Positions 55,739 through 62,330 of a DNA stretch of 64,000 nucleotides are shown one piece after another. Numbering within the stretch: position 1 is the stretch's first letter; the number at the start of each line of letters is the position of its first letter. Source of the stretch: Paramacrobiotus metropolitanus (taxonomy: Eukaryota > Tardigrada > Eutardigrada > Parachela > Macrobiotidae); contig NW_026570313.1 of assembly GCF_019649055.1 (NCBI RefSeq), positions 186,001-250,000 on the forward strand, written 5' to 3'. The notes beneath the pieces were generated by a model, which was given only the letters and a program-made list of their open reading frames with translations, made no database searches and was not told the DNA's origin. Both the position numbers and the translations under genes were made by a program.

Positions 55739-58700
55739 ATGCCGGAAGTCCCGACGCGTCTGGGCCGGACGCCGGCTCGCGCTCCGCGACTGCCGCGCGG
55801 TTGGCAGCTGCCCAACGGACGTTACCTGGCCTTCCCGGTGGTGGTGGACCCCTTCGGGAATCGCTTTTACCGCTGGCAGTGCGTCATCGCTTTGGCCGTG
55901 CTCTACAATGTCTTCGTTATTCCCGGCCGGATGGCCTTCCAACAACTGCGCGAGCCCCATCTGGACACCATGTGGATGGCGCTGGATTATATCTGCGATG
56001 GGATTTATTTGATTGATATTGTCGTGCATCTGTATCTCGGTACGTAATGACCGGCAAATGCGGTCCTGACGTGCAAACCAATTGGTAGTTATTTTTAAAA
56101 TGTTGCATTAAAATTAGCTAGCGTTTAATGAATTCGTTTTAGGCATCAGTTGGAAGTCTTATTTAATTTTACCAGTACTTTAATAAGGGGTTGTCATATG
56201 ATTTGATTATGTTAATTTAAAATTTATGTTTATTGACTTACAATGTGCACATTATGCGCAGACAGATTAACACATCAGAGAGCTTTAGTTGTTTGGTGAA
56301 AGTATATTAAAGTTGCTGCGGTTAAAACGTTAAAGCTCGTAGCTGAATTAGAGCAATTAGACCTTAATCGTTTTTAGTAATGTACTTTTCGTGCCATTGC
56401 AGTCTTATAATATTAGTGTCGTTATTAATTTTTACATTGGCTTGCGCTTTTTGTCATTTCGATGACCTGTTAAGAAAAATTGCATTTAATGCTAAAGGTC
56501 AAGCTTTCTTACGCAGCGCTGAGAATTGTTTTGTTTAGTAGCACTGCAAAGATATTGAGGCTTGTATAACCCTTAGCAAAACGTAAAAGCACGATTTATA
56601 CTGGATTTGTTCCTCTTTGTGCTTAATAATAATTACATTACTTTATTGATTTTTGTCCGGTATTACATCGTAAAAGTAAACAATGTATAATAGATAACCG
56701 TCGTGTTTGCATGTCAGTAAAGTCAGGCCCATTGTGTCTCCGTTGGTCTAATGGAAATGCCCATCTTGTATAAACTGCCTGGTTTCTTCCAGTGCAGCAA
56801 AAGGGATTAGTTTGTAAAGAGCTGGTCCGATAACATTATTAGATGCGATCTTATTGCGCGCGCCACAATGTCAATTGCTTCCTGCACCCTCCTCAACCGG
56901 CTTAAACCGCTTCAACAGCCCTACAATCCTGACCATCTTAACAATCTATCCATTTGTTTGCTTTACTCAATTACCGCTCTCCAGACGGAAGTTATTGATT
57001 TTTTTATTACACTTATACCGTTTTTTCTCCACGCAAAAAATGCAGCCGTATTTAGTTTAATTCGTTTGATAAATCGGATTAATTTACGGAAAGTGAACAG
57101 CATATGAAAACTGAGTGCATGCAATAACGAAACAATCCTTAAGAGAAACATACTCGAAATAAATCGTATGAATTTCATTTTATCAAGAGAACTAATAGAA
57201 AACTAAGAAGAATTGCAAATCAGTCAAATGCGTAAAATTTTGCATAGCGCAATTGAAAGTTATTAAAATGTCAGCGTATATGAAAATTAATAATTCAATT
57301 GAGAAAAAAATCCCGAATACTTAAATTAAATCGTTTTTATTTTACAGTATCTGGAGAAATCTATGAAAGCGATGTAGATAATTCAGAAATTAACATGCAC
57401 AAAACTTACATTTTGAAAACGGTTTGGATATCCGGAATTAATGTTTTAACGATGGCGCATCTGGAATAATCACAGAAGAATTAAAATACGTACAGAAGGT
57501 ACATACATAATTAAATAAAAAACAGAAAAACCACATAAAAATTTGTTTTAAAATAATTTATAAAAAATACGACCAATAATTAATAATAAAAATTCCGAAG
57601 TTTTTATAATAATTTTACATTATCAGAAGTCTAATAAATCTAAGAAAGCAGTACAATTCAGGAGTTGCAGTATACAAAATTTATATATGCCGTATGCAGT
57701 CTTTTCCCAGGAAGCTTGGTAGTAAGAAACCGCGTAAACATCGTTAATGCCGGGAATACAGTGTGATTTATTAATGGTGTTGTTGACGGCGGCGAAGCGG
57801 AAAAGAGCTGCGCGCGGGTGTTTACAGCGGCATGCGCCGCGTCGTTAGGGTAATCAGTGTGGAATAACGGTATAATTGTGCGGGATCGCTGTGGGCAGCT
57901 ATGCGGTGGCTGCTGCTGTTTTCCCGGCATCCATTCCCACATGAGAAATAACCCTGCGACCGGATATGTCTTGGGAATGCGCACTGCGTGCCGATGATGA
58001 TCCGATTAGTAATTAGACGGAGGGAGGGAAAGAGAGGGAGACACTACCCGGGAATCAGCCGCAACCCATTACTTAATCTCATCCCGGATAAGACAGGGAA
58101 AACAGCAGCGCAGTGCCAACAACAGTAGGAAGGCCACGCGCCGCTGGCAACCGCGCAGGAAATTAAACTGATGCACAGTTGCAGCTGACAGTTGGAATAA
58201 TACCTGTCGCACGGATGAACGGGTCCCGGCTTTGTTGCGGCCTCTGACAGATTTAGCGCCGCAATTAATTCGCAGCCGGCGGCGACAGGGATACCCGCTA
58301 GCACGTGACCTTTACTCAGCACTTTCCAACGGGTTTCCGCGCAGGAATTTGAATTACCGGAACGCGCGCCTTTTCCATTAGTGATATTAATGGTTGACCT
58401 TTACCAATCTGTTGCTTATATAAGGCTATTTAGCAACACGATAAACAGCTATATTTATATTGCTGAATAATAATAATAAATTAACAAGGTTGCAAGCGCT
58501 GGTAAACTACTTGATAGTTAAAATTTAAACATTAAAACGAACAATCAACATCACACCAGCATAAGGGCCGTGAGCGGCAGCAGGCTGAAGTCAAAAAAGT
58601 GCAAAAATACGGCTTCCTCTCAGGACGAAATGAGTTCGCTGCTGTTAGATTCGAAACTTTTGGTAGTTCTGGTTTATCAGCAAAGAAACTGGTCAAAGAA

Positions 58701-61700
58701 GTCGGAAAGAGGGTTGAGTTACAAACAGGCGAGATTCGCAGCCACGAGTTTTAAGCGGTTTGAAAGCGGTTCGCGTTTTTAAAACAGAGCATTTCTTTAG
58801 CAATTCAAGGAGGAAATGCCGCTTTTGTTATTGGTACTGTAGAAAATGTTGTTTTTTTTAAGTGTAACTAAGCCTTGCTATTGTTATCGCTGTATTGGAA
58901 ATAAATTACTGTACTGTATTCTATCAGCATCTCCGGCTACCCTTGATTTTCTCAGGGTATGGTAATAAAAAAACAATAATTTGTTCATTTAAGTAATAAG
59001 ACAGCAATTTAAAAAAATGTAATAAATAATTATAAATAATAAAAAAATGTGTTACATAAATGTACTGTATTGAATATTAACTAAAAACAAAAATAAAATA
59101 AATAAATGTAAATTATATACTAAGCAATAATATAAATAAATATGAACATGTATTTATAACGCGGGGCCGTATGGGCGCCACGCGTATCCTCGACAGCGAA
59201 CAGCGGTGAACCCTTATGAGGCTTTAATGCCGAATCTAATGCGCACCGTGGCGCAGCAACACCAGACTAATGAGGAAGGATCCTGCAGCCAGTGCAACTG
59301 TGCTGCAGGTCCGTCAAAACAGCGCAGTAATGTGCGGGGTGGAAATCCCCAAAAACAGCGAATAGCTACTCAGGAGGGCGGGGCGTCCCGCCCTTACACC
59401 CCTTTTGCAGGCATCGCTACGTCCTCGGAGCGAAATCTCCCAGGATTCGGAGGATCCGCACCCCACGCCGGTTCGGCTTGGGTTCCGGGTCAGTTCGGTC
59501 CGGTCGGCTCGAATCCGGTTCGGCTCGGGTTGGGTGGCGGGTCAGTTCGGTCCGGTTCGGTCCGAGGTCAGCCGTCTGGGTCAACGCATTGTCGCGCCAA
59601 ATCCAGGGTCCAACCCGGAAATTGGTAAATTCCGTCGTTTCTTCAGCAGGGGAAAGGTCACGTTCTGGAGAAATTTGGGCAAGGGTTTGGGGTCTATGTG
59701 GCCCGTGACCCCTGTAAAAAAACAAAGCACGCAAATCCGCGGTGAAATCCACTGCTCCGTCCGGGGGGAGGTCGCCGTCCCAGGAAGTTCGGGCAGTGTT
59801 ATGGTGGGGGAATTCTTCGGCGTGATGCTGGTGGTCGATCCGTGCCGTTGGGATCGGAGTTAGTGCTGCTGTTGGCGGTGTATCCGTTCTGGTTTCCCGC
59901 TGGTCCGGGTCGCGTTCGCCGTCGGCATCGCAGGAGGCAATTCTCGCTCCACGGCATCGCAGGAGGCGTTTCTCGCTCCGCGGCATCTCCGTCCAGTTTG
60001 GGAGGCATCCGTCGCGGGGAGGCGTCCATCTCCGTCAGTTGGGAGAGTATCCATCACGTTCCGCGTGGGGGGGGGGGGTGGGAATGTAGCTCCACACCCC
60101 GGGGTTAAATGGGGTTCATAACTCAGAGGTACTGCGGGCGCGACGAGCGCGCGCAGTTGGAAACGATAGCCAGATCTGCTACCATATAACGCGGGGCCGT
60201 ATGGGCGCCACGCGTATCCTCGACAGCGAACAGCGGTGAACCCTTATGAGGCTTTAATGCCGAATCTAATGCGCACCGTGGCGCAGCAACACCAGACTAA
60301 TGAGGAAGGATCCTGCAGCCAGTGCAACTGTGCTGCAGGTCCGTCAAAACAGCGCAGTAATGTGCGGGGTGGAAATCACCAAAAACAGCGAATAGCTACT
60401 CAGGAGGGCGGGGCGTCCCGCCCTTACATATTAATGAATAAAATCACTATTAACAAAATATTGTTATCCCAATTTTGTGATGCAGGGATTCCGCGGAAAG
60501 GCAATCCGGCATCCGATCTGCGCATCTCGCGGCGGGAATACTTCCGCAGCACGATGTTCAAGCTGGACGTGATCAGTATCCTCCCCACCGACGTCTTTTA
60601 CACCCTGCTGGGCACCCACTTCGCGGCGCTGCGTCTCAACCGGATCTTGCGCATGCACCGCATCCACCACCTCATCGAGCGCACCCGCATCCACTTCGCC
60701 CAGGGGTTCTATTTTGGCTTCTTCCAGGTGGTCATGTACGCCATCATCTTCATCCACTTCAACGGATGCCTGTATTACGCGCTCAATTATGGGCAAGGCT
60801 TTGGGTAAATAAAGTTTCTCAGATTTCTTAGGTTTCTTAGATGTCATAGGTTTTCTTAAATAGGTTTCTCAGATGTCTTAGCATGAGTTGTGTTTGTGCG
60901 CAGCTACGATATAAATTAGCGTATCAAGGTATCCAAAATTTCTTAGATTTCTTGGGTTTCTTTAGTAAGTTTCTTAGTCTCCTTTATGTGACGTTTATAG
61001 GAACCGGTTACATAGGGCGTACGTTTATCTTAGATTTGTCAGGTTTCTTAGATCCCTTATTGTGACCTTCTGCGCAGCAGGGAACTTAAGTAGTATGTAT
61101 CTTAGATTTTTTTGGTTTCTTACAATCACATTTTTATTGTGACCTTTTGCACAGTTATGATGAGTGGACCTTCCCGGTATTCACCAACATGACCAACCCG
61201 GTGACGAACGAAAGTATGGCGCAGGAAGGCAACTTCCTCAACCTGTATCTCCGCAGCTTCCAGTGGGCCATTGTCGTGCTGGCCCAGGACGTGGACGGCT
61301 TGATCTACGCCAACGTCATCGAGTGCCTGCTGCGCATCTTCGTCACGATCGAGGGCATGATGCTATTGGGCGCAGGCATCGCCATCGCCGAGCATCTGCT
61401 GGCCTCCAAGAACCGGCATCTTGAAGCCTACCAACGCCGGCTGGACGCCGTGAAGCGGTATATGGTGCTGCGACCGGTGGATAAGGCCATGCGGAAGAGG
61501 GTTCTGGGCTGGTTTAATTACGTCTGGGAACAGAAACTTTTCTCTGATGAACAGACTGATTTAGAGGTACTGTCGCCGATACTGCGGCTGGCCATTGCCA
61601 AAGCGGCGCATATGGATACCTTTCAGGTAACAACGCTGCATTTCTGCTGGCTTGATTTTCGAAAGTACTGGTTAGTTGATATTCCACTAGCGGCGCTGGT

Positions 61701-62330
61701 CAGTATTAAAACGTCACACGTTATTTCTAGCGCGTAAAACTTTTCCGCGGATGCGAGCCCCAAGCCTTAGAAGAACTTATCATGCGGCTGCAGCTACAAT
61801 TCTACTGCCCCGGCGACCTGGTCTTCCGCAAGGGCGACCACGCCAACGAGATGTACATCGTCCGCTCCGGACTCCTCCAAGTGGTCAGCGAAGACGGGAA
61901 AGAAGTGTACGCCTCGCTCTCACAAGGCAGCGTTTTCGGGGAAGTATCCCTCCTAGGCGGACTGACCCGCTCCGAGCAGAAGCGCACCAACACCGTCCGG
62001 AGCCAATCCTACTCGGAGCTCTTTACCCTCTCCAACCAAGACTTCCATGAAGTGTTGGAGAACTATCCGCTGGCTAAGCAGGCGGTGTTGTCGCGCAGCC
62101 GGCCCGTTCGAACCGACGGCTCCCCGACAGAAGAGTTACCGCCGGCACGCACCGAGGCGGAGTCCCTGGAGACGCGGGTGGAGAAGCTGACGGGGAGGAC
62201 GCCGCTGCTGCTGCACGAGATCAACGCGGCTATTGTGAGAATGGCCTCCGAGAACAACAGGCTCAAGAAGACCCTGCACCGGCTAGAGAAACTGGATAAA
62301 GTCCATGACTTTCGCTATTCTAGCGGCTAA
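55739..62330 (+). CDS. Cyclic-nucleotide-gated cation channel subunit with atypical pore
   Basis: Exons 55739-56039, 60486-60804, 61155-61626 and 61731-62330 join in agreeing phases to 563 residues. Order: VVVDPFGNRFYRWQ entry to S1 (about 45-62), S2 (MALDYICDGIYLIDIVV), S3 (FKLDVISILPTDVFY), S4 (RLNRILRMHRIHHLIERTRI), S5 (VVMYAIIFIHFNGCLYYAL), pore and S6, a C-linker (KRYMVLRPVDKAMRKRVLGW), a cyclic-nucleotide-binding domain with FGEVSLLGG and RTNTVRSQSYSELF, and a C-terminal coiled coil (EINAAIVRMASENNRLKKTL) like the trimerising CLZ helix of CNGA subunits. The protein sits in the plasma membrane and would open on cAMP or cGMP binding. The usual TTIGETP filter is missing (positions about 245-254 read IVVLAQDVDG). 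A modulatory subunit is possible. Intron 1 is 4.4 kb and rich in mobile DNA. Confidence 0.9.
58566..58850 (+). pseudogene. Decayed reverse-transcriptase C-terminal fragment
   Basis: A frame ERQQAEVKKVQKYGFLSGRN leads into VRFETFGSSGLSAKKLVKEV and stops; after a frameshift, SISLAIQGGNAAFVIGTV follows at about 58788-58841. The pairing of an ETFG segment with a terminal I-x-x-x-I-Q-x-GNAA motif is typical of the C-terminal end of reverse transcriptases from animal retroelements (family placement from memory). The frame is broken and no upstream catalytic domain is present, so it is a dead remnant in CNG intron 1. Confidence 0.6.
59155..59398. repeat. Left terminal direct repeat of the TRIM-like element
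   Basis: 244 bp, matching 60185-60428 at all but about one base. Confidence 0.9.
60185..60428. repeat. Right terminal direct repeat of the TRIM-like element
   Basis: 244 bp. It ends 57 bases before exon 2 of the CNG channel gene, so the insertion lies very near a splice acceptor. Confidence 0.9.
60805..61154 (+). repeat. CNG intron 2 with CTTAGATTTCTTAGG repeats and acceptor-like copies
   Basis: The intron is largely degenerate TTTCTTAGRTTTCTTAGG. The real acceptor TGTGACCTTTTGCACAG (ends 61154) has a close upstream look-alike, TGTGACCTTCTGCGCAG (ends near 61076), and a weaker relative near 60901, as if an intron-end unit had been duplicated in tandem. Confidence 0.6.

Follow-up and report, generated by a model that had tools for sequence, protein, structure and literature searches.

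A tardigrade CNG-type subunit with an acidic, non-TIGE filter and a candidate modulatory role

The window (the whole stretch of 64,000 nucleotides that we analyzed, from Paramacrobiotus metropolitanus contig NW_026570313.1) contains a CNG-type gene whose predicted filter is AQDVD, in the place of TIGE. The whole pore module of the encoded protein, that is, the filter and S6, has drifted, while the C-linker and the nucleotide-binding domain are retained. We lean slightly toward the view that the gene encodes a non-principal subunit, able to bind cNMP and lacking the zipper, which modulates channels formed by the TIGE-bearing subunit and which, alone, carries little or no cation current; we infer its ligand binding, co-assembly, non-conduction, and modulation.

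Gene structure and the rewritten pore

The gene (55739-62330, + strand) has four exons, all of its introns are GT-AG, and its 563 codons form one frame without a stop. Exon 1 (55739-56039, + strand) encodes the N terminus, S1, and S2; it is in frame, it was placed by homology and by its donor (G|GTACGT), and there is an in-frame stop upstream of the putative ATG start. (Helix names are from the alignment to CNGA1.) Exon 2 (60486-60804, + strand) encodes S3, S4, and S5 and was identified by homology, with acceptor ATGCAG|GG and donor TTTGG|GTAAAT. Exon 3 (61155-61626, + strand; acceptor CACAG|T, donor CAG|GTAACA) encodes the pore loop, S6, and most of the C-linker, and it joins 60486-60804 and 61731-62330 with the frame kept. 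Exon 4 (61731-62330, + strand), which has an in-frame splice and a match to cNMP_binding, encodes the end of the C-linker, the cyclic-nucleotide-binding domain (CNBD), the C terminus, and the stop. Intron 2 (60805-61154, + strand; 350 bp) has no counterpart in the nearest paralog, which lies on contig C229 (L001). The junction GFG|YDEW between exons 2 and 3 is supported by this paralog, because its exon continues uninterrupted through GFGYDGWT. The last intron (before RV[KQ]LF) is common to both genes. The exon at 61155-61626 is genuine, and the observation on the window gene is confirmed.

Intron 1 is 4.4 kb long and contains a repeat element: two identical 244-bp direct repeats, at 59155-59398 and 60185-60428, are 1,030 bp apart. 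In a genome scan, 40 of 258 candidate copies of this repeat were scored; because all of them were 97-100% identical and several were paired about 1 kb apart, the repeats probably belong to an LTR-type (TRIM-like) element that is short and young. Separately, the words TTTCTTAG and CTAAGAAA occur 24 times in the window, compared to 3.7 expected from base shuffling, with five of them in intron 2 (60824-61044) and nine at 2217-2706.

Exon 3 encodes WAIVVLAQDVDGL at the place of WSTLTLTTIGETP in CNGA1, with no gap through S6, and the alignment from YLR to RYM (WAIVVLAQDVDGLIYA in the window protein, WSTLTLTTIGETPPPV in human CNGA1) is also gap-free. Residues 238-259 (YLRSFQWAIVVLAQDVDGLIYA; 61246-61311, + strand) make up the pore helix and filter. 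Together these have just 3 of 21 residues in common with CNGA1, and the filter alone has 0 of 8: neither the Thr nor the Ile-Gly of the filter remains. This bears out the preliminary description, which had reported a CNG subunit without the TIGE filter. That description had also suggested that an Asp at about residue 252 stands in for the filter Glu, but the residue aligned with the Glu is D254 (61294-61296), and D252 (61288-61290) is in the place of the Ile.

When we searched all six frames of 55739-62330 with three patterns, we found no TIGE-like filter in the gene's frame. The only two [TS]xGE words were both in exon 4 and both out of frame (one on the + strand, adjoining a stop, and the other on the - strand). 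With these three patterns, no normal filter hidden in an intron or in another frame was found. A pair of frameshifts that masks TIGE is ruled out, because there are no gaps in the alignment to either side and because a comparable sequence is found on a second contig. The predicted structure of exon 3 alone (157 amino acids, from a single sequence) had a mean pLDDT of 42.5 and was unusable.

Identity to CNGA1 varies greatly along the protein: 23/61 and 31/84 across S1 to S5, 3/21 in the pore, and 3/35 in S6 (approximately 61312-61416, + strand, from the alignment to CNGA1), as against 31/73 in the C-linker and 51/114 in the CNBD. The cavity-gate residues, which are Phe and Val in CNGA3 (PMC10761061, in the part consulted), are replaced in the window protein by Leu and Ile, respectively. 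The window S6 contains three charged residues (E, R, and E), and its best 19-residue mean hydropathy is 1.78, the same as for CNGB1, compared to 2.71 for CNGA1. The arginine row of S1-S4 (RLNRILRMHRIHH) is retained.

Pfam identified both Ion_trans (2.6e-20) and cNMP_binding (9e-21) in the window protein, each over its curated cutoff. The CNBD (PF00027) spans residues 387-476 (61797-62066, + strand) and includes the pocket motifs FGEVS (FGE) and KRTNTV (RT), which have a role in ligand contact. Mutants in which an Arg of the binding site is changed to Glu have reduced affinity (excerpt of PMC4942689). Searches against solved structures used a draft protein with three small junction errors as the query; the best relative was CNGA1 (1.3e-89, 304 bits). 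With the same draft query, the next solved matches were CNGA3, CNGA2, an entry titled "cyclic nucleotide-gated cation channel" (which we take to be TAX-4), and CNGA4; CNGB1 (190 bits), HCN4 (115 bits), and KCNH1 (98 bits) scored lower. With both domains in one chain, and nearer to CNG than to HCN or KCNH, the window protein can be assigned by sequence to the CNG family.

The window protein resembles the solved channels CNGA1 and CNGA3 (for example, 7lft and 8ev8), which are its best sequence matches, in the order S1-S6, C-linker, CNBD. These channels also have the TIGE filter, the S6 core FATIVGN, and the C-terminal leucine zipper of CNGA subunits (CLZ), none of which was found in the window protein. 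For the CLZ (PF16526), there was no Pfam match at E ≤ 1 in the window protein, and a scan of the genome gave seven places (six of them over the cutoff), none of which is on the window gene's contig (C93). The preliminary description had stated that everything else of a CNGA-like subunit was in place; this was too broad, given the rewritten S6 and the lack of a CLZ match.

A tree of 18 rows, with the pore columns (295-325) left out, joined the window gene and the C229 paralog in one clade (support 100/100). The best tree placed this pair outside the group of vertebrate CNGA and the C2 gene (L008), but the branch is weak (57/75). In AU tests, neither a single clade of the genome's full set of 11 CNGA-type genes (p-AU of 0.123) nor a clade of ten of them, without the gene on C18 (L005; 0.36), was rejected. 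The window gene does not belong to the CNGB clade (5 rows, support 100/100) and does not have the arginine gate of CNGB S6: it has Glu at that position, whereas the three CNGB-type genes of the genome have Arg. Judging from the sequence, the window gene is not a classical CNGA, as the CLZ was not detected and the placement is uncertain.

CNG-type subunits across the genome

We scanned the 169.8-Mb assembly with the pore exon, a canonical paralog, the full protein, and the CLZ model, and we built spliced gene models by script. This identified 11 CNGA-type and 3 CNGB-type genes, and there may be further ones. Just one of the 11 CNGA-type subunits modeled has the TIGE filter (TTIGE, on C2). The other ten, including the nearest paralog of the window gene, have at least five other types of filter: TNVGD (C18), TLIGQ (C124), TMIGI (C6, C12:426k, and C3), filters with one extra residue (TSIIPQ, TSILPN, and TSKPYE, in the C12:1.53M gene [L007] and two C45 genes [L015 and L016]), ADEGD (C229), and AQDVD (the window gene). 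The three CNGB-type subunits, on C26, have TIIGN (twice) or TAVGN, with GN in place of the GG of human CNGB. The window gene is not an isolated oddity: the C229 gene shares its clade, and ten of the 11 CNGA-type subunits lack TIGE. In the tree, the genes with TMIGI, those with TSxxP, those of CNGB type, and the window pair each form a single clade with starred support. This animal has probably turned most of its CNGA-type subunits into regulatory or altered-pore subunits.

The CLZ was over the cutoff in seven of the 11 CNGA-type proteins (C2, C124, C12:426k, both C45 proteins, C6, and C3), although one of the C45 proteins was barely so (27.5 versus 26.7 bits). It was weak in C12:1.53M (E = 0.14), and for the window gene, C229, and C18 Pfam gave no match at E ≤ 1.

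The gene models span only the length of the query, the Pfam scans covered the CNGA-type proteins, two of the CNGB-type models (L003b and L004) miss parts of the CNBD, and L010 is in many short exons. The counts leave out L002 (C42), which is an indel-ridden near-copy of L001; L006, which was superseded by the better-cut L015 and L016; L009 and L011, which have GYGD filters; and weaker matches on C40, C6:734k, and C4:2545k.

Several of these loci have other features. The three CNGB-type genes lie within about 20 kb (C26:187500-208000; L003 and L004). The two C45 genes, whose filters are longer by one residue and contain a proline (TSKPYE and TSILPN), adjoin each other (C45:691000-704500). L007 (C12:1527000-1534500) has no Ion_trans match at E ≤ 1, yet it aligns through S1-S6, so it is either strongly diverged or imperfectly modeled. 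L011 (C39:385500-392500) and L009 (C40:979000-986000) are CNBD channel genes with K+-type filters; each locus has more than one channel-like stretch, and they are perhaps CNGK-like tandem channels.

Candidate roles of the window subunit

The window subunit has kept a voltage-sensor-like domain, the C-linker, and the CNBD, and has lost the conserved cation pore. Because the CLZ, which is the part by which CNGA subunits trimerize, was undetected, it would occupy the odd slot of a tetramer, and its partners would be CLZ-bearing, TIGE-bearing subunits (the C2 gene). In the heteromer, it would bind cNMP and either silence the channel or alter its gating, its conductance, its block by Ca2+, or its sensitivity to ligand; by itself, it would give little or no cation current. 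A modulatory slot would suit a subunit with retained sensor and coupling parts, no detected zipper, and a drifting pore. The preliminary description was right to raise a modulatory, altered, or non-conducting subunit as a possibility.

There are precedents for such a role. CNGA4, CNGB1, and CNGB3 are not functional as homomers and assemble with principal subunits (parts of PMC10761061 and PMC4942689); rod and cone channels combine three CLZ-bearing subunits with one CLZ-less partner, and CNGB has no CLZ (excerpts of PMC10761061). CNGD, which is also CLZ-less, was suggested as a replacement for CNGB (PMC9803222, as excerpted). However, the precedents also weaken this reading in two ways. First, CNGA4 and CNGB1/CNGB3 retain a recognizable filter (T-[IV]-G-[DG]), and the window subunit does not. 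Second, what keeps CNGA4 from working as a homomer was found to lie in its C-linker (PMC4942689, in the section consulted), the part that the window gene retains.

Comparison of paralogs favors a non-principal role. The window protein and the C229 paralog are identical at 225 of 502 columns (45%), and between them conservation of the pore plus S6 does not exceed that of S1-S5 (36% versus 39%), unlike in CNGA1/L008 (84% versus 48%) or CNGB1/CNGB3 (80% versus 55%). This argument is weakened because 4 of the 10 pairs compared, including the window pair, show no extra conservation of the pore plus S6, and one of these is CNGB-type: the others are L007/L016 (46% versus 50%), L015/L016 (37% versus 47%), and the CNGB-type pair L003a/L004 (45% versus 50%).

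The chief rival, which we consider unlikely but by no means negligible, is that the window subunit conducts via a new filter, A-[QD]-[DE]-[VG]-D, with two acidic rings at the mouth and with altered, perhaps divalent-preferring, permeation. The pore of the C229 paralog is WATVILADEGDNS; it retains the filter Gly, and in both members of the clade positions 8 and 10 are acidic when numbered from the Trp of the pore. The acid kept at the place of the Glu (D254 in the window protein) and the second acid two residues earlier, at the place of the Ile, weaken the non-principal reading, and judging from the two sequences they could mean a functioning acidic filter. The replacement is also gap-free, S6 is still hydrophobic, and so are the gate positions. 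Against this rival, the Thr and the Ile-Gly are gone from the window filter, the interior of S6 has charges, the filters of the two paralogs have only 2 of 8 residues in common (the Ala, and the Asp that aligns with the Glu), and the pore shows no extra conservation between them.

A broader form of this idea seems somewhat less probable again: the lineage would have rewritten its CNG family so that ten CNGA-type subunits, with five or more non-TIGE filters among them, share a single principal TIGE subunit, giving combinatorial heteromers of tunable selectivity, and the doubly acidic filter of the window gene would be a working new cation filter in the CNG fold.

We doubt that the window gene belongs to one of the ancient subfamilies without a CLZ that Lagman et al. 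described (CNGC, CNGD, and CNGF), where pores of this kind would be old and normal beyond this lineage as well. These subfamilies are CNGA-type without a CLZ (PMC9803222). The undetected CLZ and the placement of the window gene in the best tree both suit this explanation, but the branch in question is the weak one, and the AU tests left both CNGA-type clades of this genome unrejected.

It is quite improbable that the window gene is decaying, or is an assembly error, and is intact in appearance only. The assembly does contain indel-ridden copies: the end of contig C42 (L002) matches L001 in two blocks, the main one 6.2 kb long (2 mismatches, 28 gap openings) and the second 0.9 kb long (7 mismatches, 11 gap openings). 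The GC3 of the window gene (0.77) is also above that of the ten other genes (0.48-0.69). On the other side are the 563 open codons and three GT-AG introns, the gap-free alignment of the pore, and the acidic non-TIGE filter on a separate contig. In addition, omega = 1 was rejected on the window gene's branch (2dlnL of 30.8; codon model of 499 codons in 11 genes). Synonymous sites are saturated: on some branches, the window gene's among them, the synonymous length reached the bound of 30. The value of omega (0.027) is therefore not usable beyond the rejection of neutrality; the gene is not neutral, but saturated sites do not give the strength of selection. Given the acidic-filter paralog on another contig and the rejection of neutral evolution, decay or misassembly is unlikely. 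The earlier statement that the exon is otherwise intact and not simply decayed stands.

As a side observation, C229:19500-29000 (L001) and C42:1113500-1120500 (L002) are nearly identical, with gaps as most of their differences, and the latter is probably an unpolished duplicate contig end.

Just as improbable is a dead central pore with conduction by another route, such as the voltage-sensor domain, or with signaling only: the arginine row of S1-S4 is kept, but S1-S5 identity to the paralog is 39%, below the other pairs compared (44-56%). The model for such a route is HCNL1, a CNBD channel of the HCN family whose ions take a path other than the central pore and whose proton current was demonstrated. 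In HCNL1, protons pass through the voltage-sensor domain (PMC11700363, in the part consulted).

Tardigrade CNG channels in context

The high number of CNG genes in tardigrades is already known: Lagman et al. reported nine genes of CNGA type and as many as four of CNGB, the most among the animals studied (excerpts of PMC9803222), compared to 11 CNGA-type and 3 CNGB-type genes in this genome. The terms "pore" and "selectivity filter" do not occur in the main text of that paper, and among the titles and abstracts of the open-licence literature we found no account of tardigrade CNG pores or of degenerate CNG filters. The filters of vertebrate CNG channels are TIGE, TVGD, and TIGG (PMC10761061, in part). 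In a survey of CNBD and Kv-like channels, the metazoan CNG channels with TIGE were the sole clade-level departure from TVGY/FG, and other strong deviations of the filter were rare features of single channels (PMC7576140, in the parts consulted). One CNG gene was up-regulated in an anhydrobiosis study within a tardigrade genome paper (excerpt of PMC5531438); we claim no link between that gene and the window gene.

The ten of 11 CNGA-type subunits that depart from TIGE do so in several ways and provide, on a common scaffold, a naturally occurring series of pore variants, which makes it testable what a CNG subunit can lose while still serving. More broadly, they suggest that cGMP/cAMP signaling in this animal has diversified at the level of the channel.
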